A DNA stretch of 8,478 nucleotides from assembly GCA_030154385.1 (NCBI GenBank), contig JASKJZ010000091.1, positions 1 to 8,478 on the forward strand. The letters are read 5' to 3'. This DNA is from Clostridiales bacterium (GTDB lineage: Bacteria > Bacillota_A > Clostridia > Lachnospirales > Lachnospiraceae). Made by a program: the position numbers and the translations under genes. The notes beneath the pieces were generated by a model. That model did not search any database and had not been told where the DNA came from. It saw only the letters and a list, made by a program, of their open reading frames with translations. Below, piece by piece: positions 243 through 8,478 of this stretch; the first letter of the stretch is position 1; the number at the start of each line of letters is the position of its first letter.

Positions 243-1464
243 TTATGATGCAAGATCCTTTTTTGCTAATTCATAGAGTCTTTTTTCAATCACAGCATCA
301 TCCATTTCTTTTTTGTCATCAATTCTAAATATAACAAAGGCACCTATCAAGCATAGACAGATAAAAATTCCATATGCCAATGTCCATCCACCAATCGCAA
401 TTCCAATTGCCAAAATTGCAAATCCAAAGCTCTGTAAAATCGTAGCCAACGGTGTACAAACACGATTTGCAGATAAAAATTCATACCGACCAAACTTCGA
501 TATTACCATGGAAGGCATAAGATTGGGAATTCCTCCTGCTGTAAAGGTAAGGCAACAGGTTACAAGGTATGATGCCCCAACTGGCAGACGATCTAAAAAG
601 ATTAGTATCGAAAGAATAACCACATAGGCTAAGTTGTATATAATTCCAGCCTTTCTTGTTCCTATCTTCGTATCTAGAAATCCCCAGAAAAAGCTTCCAA
701 TCAATCCAACTATGGTTGCAATCTGAATGACATGAATTGCTTGCATCTGATTTTCAAAGTTTCCAGTACTCATAAGTCGGACTATAATATGACTTAATAC
801 ACCGGCTGTTGTCATCCAGGGAATTCCAAAACCAATACAAATTTTCCATACCACCTTGTTCTTTAACAAGTCTTTGAGGGTAAGCGAGGATTTAAAATAT
901 TTTAAAAGATTCACTTTTTCATCCGCATTTGTTTTTTCAGCATCGGGCTTGGCATTATCTGGGTATTTTCCTTTTTCTTCTGGTGTATTGCTGAGGAATA
1001 GAAGGGTTACAAAAGCAAGAACAACTAGTATCCCAGATAGTACATAACAGTATCCGCTCCAACCGATTCCTCCATCTGCCAATGCTTTTGACATAAAAGG
1101 TACAATTACCATACTGGTAAGTGGAAGACCCATTGTCGTCCAACCCATTACCACTCCTTTTTTCTTCGGAAACCAGGAGCCAACAAAGCCATGATGAACT
1201 GCAAAGGCCAAACAAGTTCCAGCCATAAACAAGTGAAGTAAACATAACACCTGCCAAACAACAAACAATTCCGATTGGAGTAGCAACGGCTAAAAGCGCT
1301 GTACTTTGTTTTCCAACTACATTTGAAAGATAGCCCGTAAAAACGTTCATTCCATCCACTGCAAACGCACTATACATCATCTGATATACAATACAAACCA
1401 GAATTAGCACCCAGCCCCATACCCCAAAATTTACTGCATCAATATTTCTCTTCTTCTCCTTCAT
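243..1464 (-). pseudogene. MFS transporter, disrupted by an out-of-frame internal deletion
   Basis: The N-terminal frame starts at ATG 1464 (MKEKKRNIDAVNFGVWGW), with AAAGGGG about seven bases upstream; a GTG one codon earlier sits too close to that site. It encodes TM1 and TM2 up to about LAGVMFTSLV (near 1228) and then loses MFS character. The MFS reading resumes in another frame at about FMAGTCLAFAVHHGFVGSWF and continues to the stop at 243, with WFPKKKG after TM4 and the remaining membrane helices. No single frame gives a whole transporter. Even joined, the product would pass from TM2 almost directly to TM4: the TM2-TM3 loop motif with its G...D(K/R).G pattern and TM3 are missing, roughly 35-45 residues judged against the OFA transporter at the other end of the window. 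An 8-bp direct repeat (AAACAAGT, 1210-1217 and 1227-1234) lies at the junction. It follows the kinase gene by 24 bases, so it was probably the operon's own carrier for a small organic acid. An assembly error remains possible. Confidence 0.8.
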
Positions 1465-1488
1465 CACAATACCCCTTTATATTCTATT

Positions 1489-2595
1489 TTAGAACTGAAA
1501 ACCGCTCCACGCTGGGATTCCGGTATATTCCTTCGTCTCTTCTTCTCCAGATAGTGCACGGATTGCTCCTGCCGCCAAGGCCTCCATCTCAAAATCCCCG
1601 CCGTATACCTTGACAGGAGCTAAAAATCCACAGTACTCGGTCACGTGTTCAACGAAATATTTATCGTTGCTGACGCCACCTGTTAAAATAATGCCATCCA
1701 CTTTCCCTTTTAGCACAACCGCATAAGATCCAATTGCTTTCGCAAGCTGATAGGCCATCGCATCATAAATCAAGGTTGCATAAGCGTCTCCATCTTTGAT
1801 TCTCCGCTCAATTTCCATAGCACTGTCGGTTCCAAGATGTCCAAGAAGTCCTCCTGTTTTGCTGATTTTAGCAACCATCTCTTTTTCCGTAAATTCTCCC
1901 GAAAAGCACATCTTAATGATTGGTACGGCTGGAACAGATCCGGAGCGATTTGGCGCCATCGGTCCATCCCCATTTAAGACATCATTTCCATCAATTATTT
2001 TACCCTTACACTGTGCGGTAATGGAGAGGCCACCACCTACATGAGCGACTACAAAATTACAGTCCTCATATTTTTTGCCAAGCTCTTTCGCATATCGCAT
2101 AGCAACTTCCTTTTGATTTAAAACATGAACGCGGCTCTCACGGTAAAGTCCTTTGATTCCTGTCACTCTTGCTAAATCTTCAAACTCATCCACATCTGGA
2201 GGATTTACAAGATAAGCTGGCGCTTTAAATTCCTCAGAGAAAATGTGGATAAGCTGTGCTCCTAGAATAGCAGGATGCTTAACGGTACGTCCCTCTTTGG
2301 AATGCTTTAGTATCATCTCATTGACTGGATAAATACCTCCCTCCATACTTTCAAGTCCACCACTATAGGCTGCAAATGCATCCATATCCGATAGTGAAAT
2401 TCCTGCATGGTTAAGTTCAGACTGTATGGTTTCTAAACGGTATGGCAACTGGTCGCTAATTTCTTTGTACTCCTTTAGCTTTTCTGGATCATGAGCCACA
2501 TTCGCCTTAAATATCCTTGTTTCATTTTCAAATACTGCAAGCTTCGTTGAGGTCGAGCCTGGACTTAACGTACATATTTTATAGGATTTTCCCAT
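1489..2595 (-). CDS. buk: butyrate kinase family acyl kinase (acyl-phosphate + ADP = acid + ATP)
   Basis: This 368-residue cytoplasmic enzyme belongs to the acetate/butyrate kinase branch of the ASKHA fold; the length is usual for butyrate kinase. Family marks include SPGSTSTK (11-18), the phosphate-binding AHVGGGLS (184-191), NRSGSVP (216-222), YDAMAYQLAKAIG (277-289), VLKGKVDGIILTGG (294-307) and EMEALAAGA (337-345). Members phosphorylate short-chain carboxylates reversibly and usually run towards ATP in fermentation. ATG 2595 is preferred over the upstream GTG at 2619 because the ribosome binding site AAGGAGG (2613-2607) lies between the two. The gene begins one base after the stop of the phosphate acyltransferase, so translation is probably coupled. 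Odd residues: compared with the remembered butyrate kinase consensus, Asn of NPGSTSTK is Ser11, Arg of GRGGLL is Ser78 and Asp of VDPVVVDE is Asn131, whereas His185 and Arg217 are kept. The family is secure; butyrate as substrate is not. Confidence 0.9.
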   Translation of the reverse strand: MGKSYKICTLSPGSTSTKLAVFENETRIFKANVAHDPEKLKEYKEISDQLPYRLETIQSELNHAGISLSDMDAFAAYSGGLESMEGGIYPVNEMILKHSKEGRTVKHPAILGAQLIHIFSEEFKAPAYLVNPPDVDEFEDLARVTGIKGLYRESRVHVLNQKEVAMRYAKELGKKYEDCNFVVAHVGGGLSITAQCKGKIIDGNDVLNGDGPMAPNRSGSVPAVPIIKMCFSGEFTEKEMVAKISKTGGLLGHLGTDSAMEIERRIKDGDAYATLIYDAMAYQLAKAIGSYAVVLKGKVDGIILTGGVSNDKYFVEHVTEYCGFLAPVKVYGGDFEMEALAAGAIRALSGEEETKEYTGIPAWSGFQF

Positions 2596-2596
2596 T

Positions 2597-3604
2597 TTAA
2601 CATTCTCCTCCTTGTGCACGGATAATTAGCATCACAATATTTCCCATCATCTCGGATAATGGCGCACTTCTCGAAAAATCACAAACAGGAAGTGCAAAGC
2701 CTTGCAAAACAGGACCATAAGCATCCGCTTTTCCAAAGGTTTGAATTAACTTAACTCCAATATTTCCTGCATGTAGGTTAGGGAAAATCAAAATATTTGC
2801 CTTGCCAGCTACTTCACTTTCCCGATTTACTTTCTTTTTTGCTACATTTGGATTTAGTGCTGCATCCAATTGGAACTCGCCGTCTATTTTTATCTCAGGG
2901 CGTCTTTTTTTCACGATTTCAACGGCTTCACGAATCACATCAATGCTCTCATGCTCGGAACTTCCAATCGTTGAAAAGGACAGCATCGCAACTCTTGGCT
3001 CCCATTTTAGTAAAGAAGCAATGGTATCGGCGGACGAGATTGCAATATCCGCAAGATCATTGCTATCAGGTGCTGCATTTACCGCACAATCCGCAATCGC
3101 AAGCATCTCTCCCTCTGGTCCTGCAAATCCAGGCACATTTAAGATTCCAAGGCTAGATACTACATTGCAACCTTCTTGCAATCCAACAATTCCTTGTGCT
3201 GCGATAATAACATCGGCGGTGGTATACTCTCTTCCTGCAGCCACACAATCTGCCTTCCCAAGCTTTAATAAAAACATCGCCAAATTAACGGCATCCTTTG
3301 ATTTTCTCTTAATTGCTTTTTCTGAAAAGTCACCAAACTTCATCAAATATTCACTTGCAAGCTCTTCACGAAGAGATTCACTTGCATTGTCATAATAGGT
3401 AAAGCCTTGGCAGCTTACACCCACTTCCTTTGCAAAGGCTTCGATTGCTTCTTGATTCCCAATCAAAACGGGATATCCGATTTTTTTTGCCACTACCTGC
3501 TCAGCGGCTTTTAAAATCATCTCATTGTTAGTTTCTGGAAATACGATTCTTTTTGGATTTTTTCTTGCTTCCGCTTCTAGCGTTTCCATTAAATTTTCAG
3601 ACAT
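2597..3604 (-). CDS. pta: phosphate acetyltransferase family acyltransferase (Pta-like)
   Basis: This 335-residue protein matches the short, single-domain Pta type. It would exchange an acyl group between a thioester and inorganic phosphate to give an acyl-phosphate for the kinase encoded next. Family marks are RIVFPET (19-25), FLLKLGKADCV (111-121), YTTADV (127-132), PRVAMLSFSTIGSSEH (203-218), IDGEFQLDAAL (240-250), AGKANILIFPNLHAGNIG (266-283), GPVLQGFALPVCDFSR (297-312). The catalytic Ser-Arg pair is kept (Ser311-Arg312). Compared with remembered canonical Pta sequences, the Arg of the ELRK motif is Met88, the Arg of TTADVLRA is Ile134 and the Asp after SRG.. is Glu318; the two arginines are those linked to CoA binding in the Methanosarcina thermophila enzyme. 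ATG 3604 has AAAGGA about eight bases upstream. It lies after a terminator-like hairpin and one base before the kinase start. The acyl donor may not be acetyl-CoA. Confidence 0.88.
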   Translation of the reverse strand: MSENLMETLEAEARKNPKRIVFPETNNEMILKAAEQVVAKKIGYPVLIGNQEAIEAFAKEVGVSCQGFTYYDNASESLREELASEYLMKFGDFSEKAIKRKSKDAVNLAMFLLKLGKADCVAAGREYTTADVIIAAQGIVGLQEGCNVVSSLGILNVPGFAGPEGEMLAIADCAVNAAPDSNDLADIAISSADTIASLLKWEPRVAMLSFSTIGSSEHESIDVIREAVEIVKKRRPEIKIDGEFQLDAALNPNVAKKKVNRESEVAGKANILIFPNLHAGNIGVKLIQTFGKADAYGPVLQGFALPVCDFSRSAPLSEMMGNIVMLIIRAQGGEC

Positions 3605-3621
3605 GGTATCTTTCCTTTCTT

Positions 3622-3665
3622 AAAAAAGGTCTTCTCAAACCCATTAAAAAGATTTAAGAAGACCT
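3622..3665 (-). terminator. terminator-like hairpin between the CocE-type hydrolase and pta
   Basis: On the minus strand a perfect 9-bp stem (AGGTCTTCT at 3665-3657 pairing with AGAAGACCT at 3635-3627) encloses a 21-base loop and is followed at once by a run of T (3627-3622). It starts eight bases after the stop codon of the hydrolase gene. Four of nine pairs are G-C and the loop is long, so it is probably a leaky intrinsic terminator or a processing site that lowers expression of the downstream acyltransferase, kinase and transporter. No clear promoter is visible between it and the next start codon, which argues for read-through. Confidence 0.6.
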
Positions 3666-3672
3666 GCATCCA

Positions 3673-5433
3673 TTAACGATAAACATAATCTCCAGCTTTG
3701 TATTTTGGAGGGATCACTGGTACTTGCAGGAAGGACTCATACTGTCCTCCTGTATGAATGATATGGTTTCCATGATTGTCGGTATCCCAGGAAAGCGGCT
3801 CAAACCATCCTTCCCGAATATAGCGTCCTGCTACTTGAATCCGAAGCTTCTGTCCCTTATGCCAAATACGAGCGGATGGAACAATTGCAATATCGACTGG
3901 AACGATTTCACCCTTTGCTAATTTTTGTTCGCGTTTACACTTTAAAACAGGATTAAATTTTGTGGATAATTTTTCATCTAATTCACGCATAGACACACGC
4001 ATCTTACCCCATGCACCTGGATGTGGCTCATCTAAGGTGTTCCAAGGTAACCAGCTCCCATTCGCATCTGCCTTTTGAATGTTTACAAATAAATCCATGT
4101 CGTCATATCCATCTGCTTCGACAAACAGACGAAGGAACATATATCCCGTAAGCTCGGTATCTTCCGTAAATTCCATATCAAAAACGGCTTCTTCCGTATT
4201 CGCATCATATGAAACACTGCTTTCAATCGCTACTGGTGCATCCTGCATCGTCATCTTTGCTGCATCCAGATAATATTTCTTATACTCAGTACGCTCTAAT
4301 GGAAATGCATTTTCTGCACGGCGTACCTGATAATCGCAATCATATGCATCCATAATATCAATGCGAACCTTCGGTGTCATTTCCCATCCAGTGTGAATTT
4401 CTTTTAGATAACGATCATAGAACCGTTTTAAATCCTCCAGATTTTCTGGCATATAGGTGTCTGGCCACTCAAAGTCACGATGCATACGCATCCATTTTCT
4501 TCTGGATTTGCACTTACGGAAAGCCTTTACGGATCCCATCAGATGGAAGTGGGAAAATCCTGCCGTCTGATAAACTGGAATTCGAACCTTTGAAAAATCC
4601 GGTATCTTGTCTTCCCAGTAACCATTCATAAATGGATATTTTCTTGCCATCGCCACCTGGTCATCTACTCCGCCACTTCCTGTCACCTGTGCCGCGATAA
4701 AATCGTTGAAACTAAGTGCCGGAATTCCACCTTCAAATAATGATTCGCGGTAAAGATCTGTCGTGCATTCCCAAGGTGCAATACAAGCAAGATGAGGTGG
4801 CTGTTCTGCTGCAATTCCCCATTGATGCATCGCAACACCAGAGTTACCAGACATCCCAACCTTTCCATTACACCAATCTCTTTTTGCAATCCACTCTACA
4901 AAATCATAGCCATCTTCACGGTCTTGATGCGTAAACATATGTACATTACCTTCTGAGTGCCCAGCACCACGAACATCTACGTTAGCCACTGCATAACCTT
5001 GATAGCACCAGTATGCAGGATCTGGAGATTCAAATTTTGCAAGCTTTGATACTGTGTGAGGTGGAACTCCCATGATCTGCCATTCGCTCATACCATCTCC
5101 AGGACGTTTTCCAAACCAGCTCCAGGATACGATAACTGGAATCTTTTCCGTGGTGTTTGCTGGACGGAAAATATCACAATAAATCTTAACCCCATCACGC
5201 ATCACAACTTCTACGTCCTGATCGCAAATAATACCTGGTGCCGCTTCATAAGTTCTTTGATTGAAGGCGGGACAAAAGCCTTGTCCCATACGGGCCATCG
5301 GATCATCACTATTTGACAAATCAACTTCGCCCTGATTATCAACTGGCTTTCTTGCCACACGGTAAATTGCTTCAATTTCTTCTCCTTGAAACACTTCTTT
5401 CTCTGTGAAAAATTCACCTTTCATTTCTGCCAT
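3673..5433 (-). CDS. CocE/NonD family (peptidase S15-like) alpha/beta hydrolase
   Basis: A 586-residue protein, a normal length for the CocE/NonD family (cocaine esterase, glutaryl-7-ACA acylase, alpha-amino-acid ester hydrolases, Xaa-Pro dipeptidyl peptidases), which cleaves esters or amides through an acyl-Ser enzyme. Seen in order: MRDGVKIYCDIFRP (78-91) opening the catalytic domain, VANVDVRGAGHSEG (149-162), the nucleophile elbow KVGMSGNSGVAMHQW (191-205) with Ser198, a cap region with APWECTTDLYRE (219-230), MHRDFEWPD (317-325) with the probable catalytic His, and a C-terminal beta-sandwich (about 390-586) with a closing jelly-roll strand pattern. An Asp in the usual GW.D triad place is not recognisable (GFSHFHL instead). 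No signal peptide, so a cytoplasmic enzyme. ATG 5433 follows AGGGAG; it begins 12 bases after the carrier protein stop, so the two are co-transcribed. It may release an acyl group for the acyl-phosphate enzymes downstream; substrate unknown. Confidence 0.88.
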   Translation of the reverse strand: MAEMKGEFFTEKEVFQGEEIEAIYRVARKPVDNQGEVDLSNSDDPMARMGQGFCPAFNQRTYEAAPGIICDQDVEVVMRDGVKIYCDIFRPANTTEKIPVIVSWSWFGKRPGDGMSEWQIMGVPPHTVSKLAKFESPDPAYWCYQGYAVANVDVRGAGHSEGNVHMFTHQDREDGYDFVEWIAKRDWCNGKVGMSGNSGVAMHQWGIAAEQPPHLACIAPWECTTDLYRESLFEGGIPALSFNDFIAAQVTGSGGVDDQVAMARKYPFMNGYWEDKIPDFSKVRIPVYQTAGFSHFHLMGSVKAFRKCKSRRKWMRMHRDFEWPDTYMPENLEDLKRFYDRYLKEIHTGWEMTPKVRIDIMDAYDCDYQVRRAENAFPLERTEYKKYYLDAAKMTMQDAPVAIESSVSYDANTEEAVFDMEFTEDTELTGYMFLRLFVEADGYDDMDLFVNIQKADANGSWLPWNTLDEPHPGAWGKMRVSMRELDEKLSTKFNPVLKCKREQKLAKGEIVPVDIAIVPSARIWHKGQKLRIQVAGRYIREGWFEPLSWDTDNHGNHIIHTGGQYESFLQVPVIPPKYKAGDYVYR

Positions 5434-5445
5434 TTTTTTCTCCCT

Positions 5446-5697
5446 CTACTCGTTTTCTACAAGCTCAAGTACATAATCCACTGCTTCCCCAATTGTTGCC
5501 TTTCTGCGAAACGTCATGTAAGGAATTTCCACATCAAATTCATCCTCCAGATAAGTTGTAATCTGAGAGTAATGAACGGATTTTGCAGCCAAATCCTCCA
5601 CAAATTTCATATCCTCTGTGATTTCCTCTGGATTTTTCCCAAACAAAGGGGCTCCTCGCTCAATTAGCTTTTGTTTAATTTGTTCTCTGGTACTCAT
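5446..5697 (-). CDS. stand-alone acyl carrier protein (phosphopantetheine-binding)
   Basis: An 83-residue acidic protein with the four-helix acyl carrier layout: helix 1 (about 4-16), a loop leading to VEDLAAKSVHYSQI, helix 2 starting at Ser40, YLEDEFDVEIP (49-59) which is typical of carrier proteins, and the final helix TIGEAVDYVLELVE (68-81). Ser40 is the expected attachment site of 4'-phosphopantetheine. The residue before it is Lys39 rather than the usual Asp of the DS(L/I/M) motif, so recognition by the phosphopantetheinyl transferase could differ. ATG 5697 has an excellent site, AAAGGAGG, seven bases upstream. It is the first gene of the operon, about 57 bases after the predicted transcription start, and is followed after 12 bases by the CocE-type hydrolase. 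There is no ketosynthase, adenylation or fatty-acid gene in view, so the carrier probably serves its operon neighbours. Family assignment is firm; the cargo is unknown. Confidence 0.85.
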   Translation of the reverse strand: MSTREQIKQKLIERGAPLFGKNPEEITEDMKFVEDLAAKSVHYSQITTYLEDEFDVEIPYMTFRRKATIGEAVDYVLELVENE

Positions 5698-5870: not shown

Positions 5871-7295
5871 ATGAAATTATCGCAGCTATTAGAACAATTA
5901 GAGCTAAAAAACAATGCTTTTCAAAGCGATTCTGCAAGGTTTCAGGGAGATTATGAAGTCTACCAATGTACACTTTCAGCTTCATCAAAACGATATCTAC
6001 GATTAGAAGATCATTGCCTTATCCTGCAAGATTTTGAGCTTTATGAAAAGGCAAGCAAACTTCTATTAAAAGAACAAGTTCTTACTCATAAAAAAGCAAT
6101 CCTTATGGAACTTCTCTACCAAAATCACACCTTACAAGATTTAATTGATACAGCATATCAAATATTGGATAACCCGATTTTCTTAGTCGATACCAGCTAT
6201 AAGATATTGGCAAGCTGCCAAAATATAGTCTATGATCGGCCAGACTTAGCAGAACAAACCATAGCTGGGTATATGAAAGAAGAAAATATAGAATCCATGA
6301 AAAAGGATCGCCTTTACGAAATTGCGAGAGAACAAGGCTATCCCTATTACAGCAAGCAAGAAGGCTCCTCCTATGGATGGGTGACAGCCCTCATTCATGT
6401 GCATGGTATTGAATCCGCACAAATGGGAGTCATGGACAGTAATCACCCGATTGAGGAACAGGATCTAGAATTAATCGATTTTTTATGCCGTCTTATTTCC
6501 ATAGAATTGCAAAAGAGCAATTTTTATAAAAACAACCAGTCCCTGATGCACAGCTTCTTTTTATCCGAGCTTTTGGAAAACCGTATACGGGATATTCACA
6601 CCATTCGCCACCGCATACAAAATTTAACCTGGAAAGTCACCGAATATATGTATATTTTAACTATTTCCGAGCAACGTGCCGACATTTTTGATAAAAAAGC
6701 ACAGCTTATTTCCAAGCAGCTCCATTTAATTTTGCCAGATAGCCGCTGGGTCATCTACGATGGACGTATCGTTTTTTTACTATGCTTACCAGACGCAAGC
6801 GGTGCCATCTTTAGGGAGGGCAGCGAACTATCAAACTACTTACAGATTAATAACCTAACTGCTTCAGTCAGTCGATGCTTCCATAGCTTTTTAGAGGTAC
6901 ATAAATATTACGAAGAATCCCTTACCGCTTATACGATGGGACAGCGCTTTGATCCCGATAAACATATGTATTTGTATAGCGATTATGTTTGCCAGCACAT
7001 AGGGGAGATTATTTCTGAGCAATATAAGCTCACTGATTTCTACCATCCAGTAATTGCTTCTATACAAGAATATGACATGCTCCATAACTCTCATCTATTA
7101 GAGACACTAAAGGAATACCTTACGTATCCAGACAATCCCTCGTTAGCAGCCGAACATCTTTTTGTTCACAAAAACACGCTGTTTTATCGCATGAGCAAAT
7201 TAAAAGAGCTCTTCAACGTGGATTTATCCAACGGAGAAGAGCGTCTAAAAATTCATCTAAGTCTTAAGTTCATGGAATTAAAGGCAGGTGATTAA
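5871..7295 (+). CDS. PucR/CdaR-family transcriptional regulator
   Basis: A 474-residue soluble protein, with ATG 5871 seven bases after AGGGGG. The C-terminus (about 405-474) carries the helix-turn-helix typical of PucR/CdaR proteins: LLETLKEYLTYPDNPSLAAE, then HLFVHKNTLFYRMSKLKELF, where the VHKNTLFYR stretch is the recognition helix region. Before it, a CdaR GGDEF-like region (about 235-390) with EESLTAYTMGQR and YLYSDY is seen. A GAF/PAS-like sensor is likely at about 80-215 (IFLVDTSYKILASC, GWVTALIHVHG, then EEQDLELIDFLCRLISIEL). Members sense small metabolites and often activate a neighbouring catabolic operon. It is divergent from the carrier protein operon across a 173-base region with operator-like palindromes, so it probably controls that operon and itself. 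Its TAA shares bases with the stop of the convergent transporter gene. The effector cannot be read from sequence; perhaps it is an organic acid or the operon's ester substrate. Confidence 0.88.
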   Translation: MKLSQLLEQLELKNNAFQSDSARFQGDYEVYQCTLSASSKRYLRLEDHCLILQDFELYEKASKLLLKEQVLTHKKAILMELLYQNHTLQDLIDTAYQILDNPIFLVDTSYKILASCQNIVYDRPDLAEQTIAGYMKEENIESMKKDRLYEIAREQGYPYYSKQEGSSYGWVTALIHVHGIESAQMGVMDSNHPIEEQDLELIDFLCRLISIELQKSNFYKNNQSLMHSFFLSELLENRIRDIHTIRHRIQNLTWKVTEYMYILTISEQRADIFDKKAQLISKQLHLILPDSRWVIYDGRIVFLLCLPDASGAIFREGSELSNYLQINNLTASVSRCFHSFLEVHKYYEESLTAYTMGQRFDPDKHMYLYSDYVCQHIGEIISEQYKLTDFYHPVIASIQEYDMLHNSHLLETLKEYLTYPDNPSLAAEHLFVHKNTLFYRMSKLKELFNVDLSNGEERLKIHLSLKFMELKAGD

Positions 7296-8478
7296 GCCAT
7301 CTTTTCCTCTTTATTTACCGCAGTATATAAAAGGCATAAAATGATTCCTGCCACTGCTAACATACCAGCGATTAAAAAAGCATGGCGGTAGCTGCCGGTT
7401 GCTGCTACAATTTTTCCAACTACGGTTGGCCCAAAAAAGCCAGCCAAGGCAAAACCAATGAACATGATTCCATAATTCACACTGTTGTTTTTTGCCCCAA
7501 ATTTATCTGCGGTAAAGCCTGGAAATACACCCATAAAGGAGCCAAAACATAAGCCTATAATCGCAACTGCACTTATAAACTGGAGGGTGCTGCCCTCTCC
7601 ACACGTATATAGAAGAAAGAGTCCTGCCATCGACAAACAAAATGCAAGAAAAAGAGTTCGCACTCTTCCGATCCGATCGGACAGAAAGCCTGCAAGCACG
7701 CGCCCCGTTGCATTAAAAAGCGCCAGTATGGATACGCAAGTCGCTGCCATTGCAGTGGACATTTTTATGATAGATTGTGCCATCGGAGAAGCCTGCGAGG
7801 TAATCATGAGTCCAGAAAACGCACCGCACATTAACATACAAATCATCAGATAAAAGTTGCCGTCTTTTATCATCTCCATCCAATTTCTATCGTTCTGTTT
7901 TTTACTATTCGAATTCGCTTCCCGTGGTACATATCCTTCTGGTATATAACCATCAGGACACTTCTCTATAAAAAATGCACAACCGCAAATAACAACCATA
8001 ACGACTGCCCCAATGATGCGAAACGTATTTTGCACACCCATAGATACGATGAGCTTATTCGCAATCGGAGGGATTATTACCGAGCTTAGACCATAGGTAG
8101 CGGTGGCAATTCCGCCAATTAACCCTCTTTTGTCCGGAAAGAATTTGACGGAATTATTTATCGTACAACCATAAACAAGCCCCATGCCAAGTCCGCATCC
8201 AAGTCCGTAGCTCACCACTAAAAATCCGATGCTGCTTGCAAAACCACTTGCAATTAAGCCTGCACCAAATAAAATTCCCCCTAAGAACACGACCCATTTG
8301 GGACCCATTTTATCATTAAAAAATCCCCCGGATATCATCGTGACAGGACCTACGGAATTTGCAACGGTAAATACAAGGGATAAACTAGCCGCTGTTAAAA
8401 CCGCACTTCCCGAAAGCCCATAGCGTTCAGACAAATGTGCCGCCATCGGCGACGCAAATACACTCCATGAATACAAGG
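7292..8478 (-). CDS. OFA-type MFS transporter (organic anion), 5' end cut by the window edge
   Basis: The frame is open to the right edge, and about 395 residues up to the C-terminus are present. The product starts mid-protein at YSWSVFASPMAAHL, the end of TM1 in the oxalate/formate antiporter (OFA) family, so some 20-25 residues are missing; a TTG at 8476 is not a credible start. OFA marks are GGFFNDKMGPKWVV (TM2-TM3 loop), KFFPDKRGLIGGIATATYGLSSVIIPP (split here by TM4-TM5), a charged central loop near EANSNSKKQNDRNW, and LSDRIGRVRTL (TM8-TM9 loop). The C-terminal tail is NKEEKMA. Eleven membrane helices are visible, twelve expected. The family moves small monocarboxylates or dicarboxylates such as oxalate, formate or lactate. 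It converges on the regulator, and the two stop codons overlap by four bases. It may supplement the broken transporter of the neighbouring operon. The substrate is not assignable. Confidence 0.88.
   Translation of the reverse strand, partial: LYSWSVFASPMAAHLSERYGLSGSAVLTAASLSLVFTVANSVGPVTMISGGFFNDKMGPKWVVFLGGILFGAGLIASGFASSIGFLVVSYGLGCGLGMGLVYGCTINNSVKFFPDKRGLIGGIATATYGLSSVIIPPIANKLIVSMGVQNTFRIIGAVVMVVICGCAFFIEKCPDGYIPEGYVPREANSNSKKQNDRNWMEMIKDGNFYLMICMLMCGAFSGLMITSQASPMAQSIIKMSTAMAATCVSILALFNATGRVLAGFLSDRIGRVRTLFLAFCLSMAGLFLLYTCGEGSTLQFISAVAIIGLCFGSFMGVFPGFTADKFGAKNNSVNYGIMFIGFALAGFFGPTVVGKIVAATGSYRHAFLIAGMLAVAGIILCLLYTAVNKEEKMA

Follow-up and report, generated by a model that had tools for sequence, protein, structure and literature searches.

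In the Pta-AckA and Ptb-Buk pairs, a phosphate acyltransferase and an acyl kinase carry an acyl group from a thioester through acyl-phosphate to ATP. PlsX and FakAB interconvert acyl-ACP (ACP, acyl carrier protein) and acyl-phosphate in a sequence that is tied to a kinase and serves lipid synthesis. Citrate lyase and malonate decarboxylase are catabolic enzymes that cleave C-C bonds on a dedicated carrier protein, for which special enzymes supply the prosthetic group. Phloretin hydrolase (Phy, DAPG_hydrolase), an enzyme of the FLR-Fcr-Phy pathway, uses water to yield the acid, and the passages cited describe no carrier, Pta or kinase step (PMC11868195, PMC7862272). Here we analyse 8,478 nucleotides of DNA (hereafter the window) from a Clostridiales bacterium of the Lachnospiraceae, assembly GCA_030154385.1, in which four genes encode an ACP, a CocE/NonD-type serine hydrolase family protein (HYD), a Pta-family phosphate acyltransferase (PTA) and a butyrate-kinase-family acyl kinase (BUK). 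We give about an even chance to the reading that these genes form a catabolic, carrier-protein-dependent, ATP-yielding acyl-cleavage module whose likeliest substrate is a dihydrochalcone.

The module shares its protein families with Pta-AckA and Ptb-Buk, and would differ from them in that a carrier protein replaces coenzyme A (CoA), that the two arginines contacting the CoA phosphates are gone, and that a kinase of the Buk type partners a transferase of the Pta type. Its likeness to PlsX and FakAB lies in the link between acyl-ACP, acyl-phosphate and a kinase, whereas those proteins belong to other transferase and kinase families and work with no hydrolase. Citrate lyase and malonate decarboxylase have another carrier and prosthetic group and are not known to have a carrier-linked Pta/kinase step. 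HYD has the fold and Ser nucleophile of CocE/NonD hydrolases such as Staphylococcus aureus 3ib3 and cocaine esterase, for which no carrier is known. Phy and HYD come from unrelated families, and HYD has no PF18089 (phloretin hydrolase, DAPG_hydrolase) among its Pfam matches at E ≤ 0.001, but the two probably hold the same pathway position and cleave the same bond, and flavone-reductase (FLR)-type genes neighbour both. Our best reading is that the module is an energy-conserving counterpart of phloretin hydrolase, with HYD at most its functional analogue.

Gene order and the link between carrier protein and hydrolase

The genes are transcribed from the minus strand in the order ACP, HYD, PTA, BUK (Table 1), and all four open reading frames (ORFs) are intact. 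The gaps are 12 bases between ACP and HYD, 68 between HYD and PTA, and 1 between PTA and BUK on the assumption that the ATG at 2595, preceded by AGGAGG, is the BUK start codon; the alternative GTG at 2619 would create a 23-base overlap with PTA. ORF coordinates and Pfam and NCBIfam matches bear out the four families, the order, the single strand and the gaps given in a preliminary description of the window. HYD matches Peptidase_S15 (PF02129), PepX_C (PF08530) and the CocE_NonD model TIGR00976 (226.5 bits, cut-off 66.3). BUK matches the butyrate kinase equivalog TIGR02707 at 418.5 bits (cut-off 289.1), its substrate role being a prediction only.

An HYD-alignment scan of species genomes returned 248 relatives, and the best 80 loci were analysed, with genes called by the longest or most similar ORF and start sites approximate. 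The order ACP-HYD-PTA-BUK, on one strand and within 6 kb, is found in 38 of the 80 loci, which is more than chance should produce. Of the three outcomes that the preliminary description named as refuting the proposed module, loss of gene order in all relatives is contradicted directly by these loci; against the other two, a PTA that ignores acyl-ACP and a carrier without phosphopantetheine, the sequences speak indirectly. Taxa named in the locus records include Bacillota, Actinomycetota, Spirochaetota, Chloroflexota and several 'Deltaproteobacteria'. ACP stands directly upstream of HYD in 45/80 loci and is fused to it in another 22, of which 15 have two ACP domains and 7 have one (L007 was counted as a single fusion, its second ACP domain scoring only 0.1 bit). 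An HYD protein search gave 3225 matches, and 18 of the best 120 listed carry ACP domains (14 one, 4 two). The ACP-HYD fusion homologues measure 714-822 aa, with the ACP domain or domains preceding the hydrolase. Because of these natural fusions, we consider that HYD and ACP belong together.

The remaining partners recur as well: PTA and BUK were each found in 57 of the 80 loci, holo-ACP synthase (AcpS) in 34 and an FLR-type gene in 39. At the genome level, the special ACP scores at least 93 bits in 24 of 25 HYD genomes, the exception being Nocardia (40 bits). Across 299 genomes of one family, HYD (E ≤ 1e-150) occurs in 8, ACP (E ≤ 1e-14) in 8 and both in 6 (hypergeometric 8e-10, kinship ignored). 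Judged from sequence, these patterns support the view that ACP, HYD, PTA and BUK form a conserved module.

HYD itself belongs to a recognizable subfamily. Ser198 is aligned in 81/81 HYDs, at the position of the CocE/NonD nucleophile. R110, H295 and R319 are present in 81/81 and E234 in 80/81, and all four are absent from five CocE relatives outside the module (L091-L094 and 3ib3). Neighbours were annotated for L091-L093, and no ACP is among them in the stretch fetched. These residues mark the subfamily and not ACP use, because the ACP-less Nocardia protein has all four. The AlphaFold model of HYD (mean pLDDT 73.5, low confidence at residues 322-369) matches the fold of S. aureus 3ib3 with a TM score of 0.71 and that of cocaine esterase with about 0.6. 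A loss of the catalytic Asp was considered and dropped, since the five outside relatives also lack Asp at the place examined.

Several loci depart from the usual arrangement. G008 has a second, more diverged set, ACP-HYD-TRAP-type transporter-PTA-BUK (L084 128-7464, minus strand), beside LysR-type regulators. In G092 one ACP lies beside BUK (L125) and another precedes a thiolase/OB-fold pair (L126), as does the ACP of G061 (L127); in L126 and L127 the pair thus follows ACP where HYD would stand. The thiolase was tried as PhlC, but the PhlC PDB match reached 81.2 bits and the best match 115.7 bits, and because PhlC is not the best PDB match, we limit the claim to a thiolase/OB pair. In Coriobacteriia loci, Olsenella-type and others (L036, L037, L039, L043, L045, L046, L047, L049, L052, L054), a second kind of genes stands close to the first, with thiolase-like and OB-fold genes in several of them and a divergent ACP (~30 bits) with PTA and BUK in some. 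In L010, L011, L018 and L027, from Lachnospiraceae/Parasporobacterium metagenome-assembled genomes, no ACP lies near HYD, and FAD oxidoreductase and NuoG/GltD-like genes directly follow it; in G005 (L010) ACP is placed elsewhere, with PTA. Two short genes between the two HYD genes of L076 resemble CoA-transferase subunits, as judged from the gene starts.

The probable carrier arm and a separate branch of phosphate acyltransferases

Carrier proteins usually show the motif D-S-L, with D-S at the phosphopantetheine serine. The window ACP, which reaches 22.0 bits against PP-binding PF00550 (cut-off 20.8) and whose scores against the 9 matching NCBIfam models all miss the cut-off, reads K-S-V instead. 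K-S is invariant in 23 aligned ACPs, and among 120 listed homologues, counting the ACP of the window, 119 have it; in the single exception, P0215, Q-S replaces it. Of 24 genomes, 17 encode AcpS no more than 15 kb from ACP, two of these at a distance of 13-14 kb, and 15 of the 17 have at least one further AcpS elsewhere. The conserved K-S and the nearby AcpS suggest that ACP probably receives the phosphopantetheine arm.

PTA matches PTA_PTB at 317.6 bits. Its nearest models are of the acetyl type, yet it falls below their cut-offs (TIGR00651, 277.8 versus 311.2 bits), as would be expected for a diverged subfamily. The pairing of ACP with PTA is seen even where HYD stands apart from ACP: in G005, G008 and G009, ACP directly precedes the PTA gene (L081, L082, L083). 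The ACP genomes other than G007, G011, G015 and G023 were searched for PF01515, and in 20/20 the start of such a gene is at most 9.2 kb away from ACP. The phosphopantetheine arm on an ACP is without a 3'-phosphate. We compared the corresponding residues with M. thermophila Pta, whose catalytic S309 and R310 are kept in 53/53 module-type PTAs; at the positions of its CoA-contacting R87 and R133, none of the 53 has Arg at either. In a same-genome comparison covering 30 of 67 Pta matches, housekeeping Ptas have R87 in 17/17 and R133 in 16/17, and the fetched module PTAs lack both in 13/13. A single branch (100/98) separates 54 module-type PTAs, one of which (L124) was labelled by its residues, from 21 other Ptas. 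Because PTA forms a separate branch from which the two CoA-phosphate arginines are gone, acyl-ACP is supported, short of proof, as its putative substrate. Sequence also gives good support to a carrier-based Pta/Buk coupling.

Flavonoid-type neighbours, proposed reaction and alternatives

The neighbours of the module in relatives point to flavonoid breakdown. The HYD of L001 shares 92% identity with that of the window, and in this locus BUK is followed by an esterase, a DUF1097 protein, a flavone-reductase-type gene, an FAD_binding_2 oxidoreductase and a NuoG/GltD-like protein. The flavone-reductase-type protein is 70% identical to PDB 7d38, which is, according to the cited passage, FLR of Flavonifractor plautii (PMC7862272). 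FLR matches were found in 19 of 25 HYD genomes at E ≤ 1e-20 and in 22 at E ≤ 1e-3. Within the one family, FLR (E ≤ 1e-40) is present in 8/8 HYD genomes and 8/8 ACP genomes versus 24/299 overall, a comparison that ignores kinship. Among 44 FLR-type rows, the flavone/FMN-contact residue W149 is present in 44 and H271 in 43, the other row being cut short. One contig of Konateibacter massiliensis (L055, G014) carries ACP, PTA and an FLR-type gene within 6 kb, the last with 78% identity to its L001 counterpart. Flavin and Fe-S reductase genes also occur in module clusters.

In a further group of loci (L065, L070, L079) the module has cyclase, SDR and cupin neighbours that are phloroglucinol-pathway-like; the comparison with models covered the L079 members and the L065 cyclase. 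L070 and L079 also contain a 3-hydroxyacyl-CoA dehydrogenase-type gene and a BKACE, which in L079 scores 409.4 bits against a cut-off of 430 for the 3,5-dioxohexanoate:acetyl-CoA acetone transferase model. The phloroglucinol route, in the passage cited, comprises cyclohydrolase, dehydrogenase and triacetate lyase (PMC10470551). Predicted Fcr is presented as an FAD-dependent oxidoreductase with an alpha/beta barrel in the cited part of PMC11868195; the cluster 7 FAD oxidoreductase was dropped as a candidate for flavanone-cleaving Fcr, as the L079 OYE-type gene and its L074 relative fit better.

The preliminary description had proposed carrier-dependent, ATP-yielding cleavage of an ester or amide. 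The module, the tie between ACP and HYD, and a PTA tied to ACP and devoid of the CoA arginines all have sequence support; the substrate does not fare as well. Given the flavonoid context (FLR-type genes, flavin reductases and phloroglucinol-like genes), we set ester or amide aside as the main substrate, and that part of the proposal is probably wrong. If the pathway is flavonoid breakdown, the neighbours point to a C-C bond next to a ketone as the bond cleaved.

Where ACP is joined to a member of an acyl-enzyme-forming family and followed by a Pta without CoA contacts and an acyl kinase, the simplest reading is that an acyl group passes from the substrate to ACP, then to phosphate and finally to ADP. 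In the mechanism that we propose, holo-ACP synthase, whose gene many relatives have in this cluster, would load phosphopantetheine onto ACP; Ser198 of HYD would attack the acyl group of the substrate and hand it to the ACP thiol and not to water; PTA would convert acyl-ACP and phosphate to acyl-phosphate; and BUK would form ATP and the free acid, which an MFS transporter may export. We infer the acyl transfer to ACP, the direction and the substrate. Because flavonoid reductases lie nearby and phloroglucinol-like genes occur in some loci, the natural substrate would most likely be a dihydrochalcone such as phloretin, which the cluster's flavone-reductase-type and flavin/Fe-S reductases would form from flavones or flavanones; the acyl group would then be arylpropionyl and the leaving group phloroglucinol. 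PhlACB chemistry suggests a similar acyl-transfer potential for acylphloroglucinols and thioesters. The thiolase/OB pair after ACP in L126 and L127, with similar genes in Olsenella-type loci, agrees with C-C cleavage in which a thiol accepts the acyl group. In its most specific form the proposal is a thiolytic retro-Friedel-Crafts (C-C) cleavage of dihydrochalcones by anaerobes, in which a CocE-fold enzyme or a thiolase/OB-fold pair delivers the acyl group to holo-ACP and an ACP-specific Pta branch and a Buk-type kinase yield ATP; this we advance tentatively and regard as somewhat doubtful.

If correct, flavonoid cleavage would be an ATP-yielding fermentation step and not wasted hydrolysis, a new energy-earning route in some gut and sediment bacteria that would explain how strict anaerobes gain energy by cutting flavonoids. 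It would also mean a catabolic, ATP-yielding use of ACP and a group of Ptas that reads acyl-ACP instead of acyl-CoA. The genes could serve gut-polyphenol research as a marker distinct from phloretin hydrolase, and cultured strains exist, for example K. massiliensis.

A number of observations weigh against this reading. Sequence by itself fixes no direction, ATP-yielding or ATP-consuming. The loci are not uniform: in 11 of the 80 the examined HYD lacks an adjoining ACP, 2 cut loci are undecided, and ACP, PTA or BUK is missing from the available stretch in 26/80, several of them contig ends. The ACP-less count includes L076, which has two HYD genes (1592-3436 and 7455-9221, plus strand), the second alone having ACP directly upstream. 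HYD occurs without ACP in Nocardia and in 2 of the 8 HYD genomes of the family (G046, G252), whose HYDs are ~60% identical to that of L072 and have no ACP adjoining (L129, L130) or genome-wide at E ≤ 1e-14. Mutation of the equivalent arginines in P. gingivalis Pta lowered activity by just 58% and 21%, and that study assigns them to a second CoA site; EutD-like 1vmi likewise lacks the residue aligned at R87 and keeps R133. The arginine loss therefore fits ACP use and is no proof of it. As for flavonoids, FLR matches at E ≤ 1e-20 are missing from 6/25 HYD genomes, including Bifidobacterium simiarum and Slackia equolifaciens, T279 of FLR is found in 0/44 rows, and 25 of these rows are only 24.6-30.8% identical to 7d38, which is about the level of the C. 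ljungdahlii FLR given as functional at 29.69% identity in the cited passage (PMC7862272). Of the 25 HYD genomes, 7 encode phloretin hydrolase (PF18089) as well; with both enzymes in these genomes, a clean replacement of phloretin hydrolase by HYD was rejected. Finally, butyrate kinase is induced on phloroglucinol, with ATP attributed to CoA thioesters in the part of PMC10470551 cited, and PTA and BUK near phloroglucinol genes therefore need not imply ACP use.

The last result bears on a simpler account, in which HYD is an ordinary hydrolase or an acyl-ACP thioesterase, PTA and BUK serve another acid or phloroglucinol-derived CoA thioesters (acetate kinase is induced along with butyrate kinase in the cited passage of PMC10470551), and the genes share regulation only. 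HYDs with no adjoining ACP (the 11 loci, L129, L130 and Nocardia) agree with it, but the frequency of fusions with one or two ACPs, both in the loci and among the listed proteins, the special ACP in 24/25 HYD genomes, and the constant proximity to ACP of a PTA without the CoA-phosphate arginines make it very unlikely. A non-flavonoid substrate, such as another aryl ketone, a phenolic acid ester or an amide, would leave the same carrier-based, ATP-yielding module in place. It would suit the ester/amide hydrolase fold of HYD, the hormone-sensitive-lipase-type esterase genes in 22/80 loci and the six genomes without a good FLR match, and we consider it rather unlikely in view of FLR-type genes in 8/8 HYD genomes versus 24/299, the phloroglucinol-pathway-like genes of L065, L070 and L079, and the thiolase/OB pair after ACP (L126, L127), which suggests C-C chemistry.

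The pathway might instead run in reverse and consume ATP, with BUK and PTA loading an acid onto ACP and HYD passing the acyl group to an acceptor in biosynthesis, storage or detoxification, or with reductases acting first on acyl-ACP, for which the caffeate CoA loop is an analogue. Pta and acyl kinase reactions are reversible, and the flavin and Fe-S reductases of the clusters would suit such a route; PlsX/FakAB connects acid, acyl-phosphate and acyl-ACP in Gram-positives, as the cited part of PMC10146087 has it. The recurrent neighbours that were annotated are, however, of catabolic type (FLR, phloroglucinol-like), and no acceptor-making gene was recognised among the annotated recurrent clusters, many non-recurrent genes being unannotated; we judge the reverse direction unlikely. 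Catabolic cleavage with acyl-ACP as the route to ATP remains our preferred reading.

Other features of the window and its relatives

The coordinates of the module genes and of their neighbours in the window are collected in Table 1. Of 81 locus maps, that of the window among them, 42 show a gene related to the divergent regulator.

Table 1 Features of the 8,478-nucleotide window
Feature	Position	Strand	Description
ACP	5446..5697	-	Acyl carrier protein of a specialised kind, 83 aa; serine expected to take phosphopantetheine lies in K-S (AAKSVHYSQ)
HYD	3673..5433	-	CocE/NonD-type serine hydrolase family, 586 aa; candidate acyl transferase to ACP; nucleophile Ser198 (by alignment)
PTA	2597..3604	-	Pta-family phosphate acyltransferase, 335 aa; ACP-linked group; without two CoA-phosphate arginines
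BUK	1489..2619	-	Butyrate-kinase-family acyl kinase; likely start ATG at 2595
PucR/CdaR-type regulator (HTH_30, GGDEF_2)	5871..7295	+	Divergent; candidate module regulator
MFS transporter gene 3' of BUK	243..1467	-	Frame break: two pieces in different frames (955-1467, 243-1286)
L-lactate/oxalate-formate-type MFS transporter	7292..8476	-	Convergent with regulator; probably cut by window edge

Among open-licence PMC papers we found none that joins CocE, acyl carrier protein and butyrate kinase in a gene cluster, none that pairs flavone reductase with acyl carrier protein and none that pairs phloretin hydrolase with substrate-level phosphorylation, each a weak absence. The term 'acyl carrier' is absent from the main text of the flavonoid and phloroglucinol papers examined, including PMC10470551 and PMC11868195, and 'acyl' is absent from PMC7862272.

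Other genes were noted around the module. The hormone-sensitive-lipase-type esterase is represented, for example, by L001 14137-15060 (plus strand). Several xylose-isomerase-like TIM-barrel and GFO/IDH genes surround the module in L072 (2367-18613), and presumably recall flavonoid C-deglycosylation systems of the DgpABC type. One gene cluster lies near HYD in L073 (13069-14205), L076 (621-1628) and L080 (11770-12705), where Pfam assigns the L076 and L080 members to Amidohydro_2, and it is also found in the ACP-less Nocardia locus. In the window itself, the overlapping pieces of the broken MFS gene at 243-1467 on the minus strand indicate either a decayed gene or a sequencing error.

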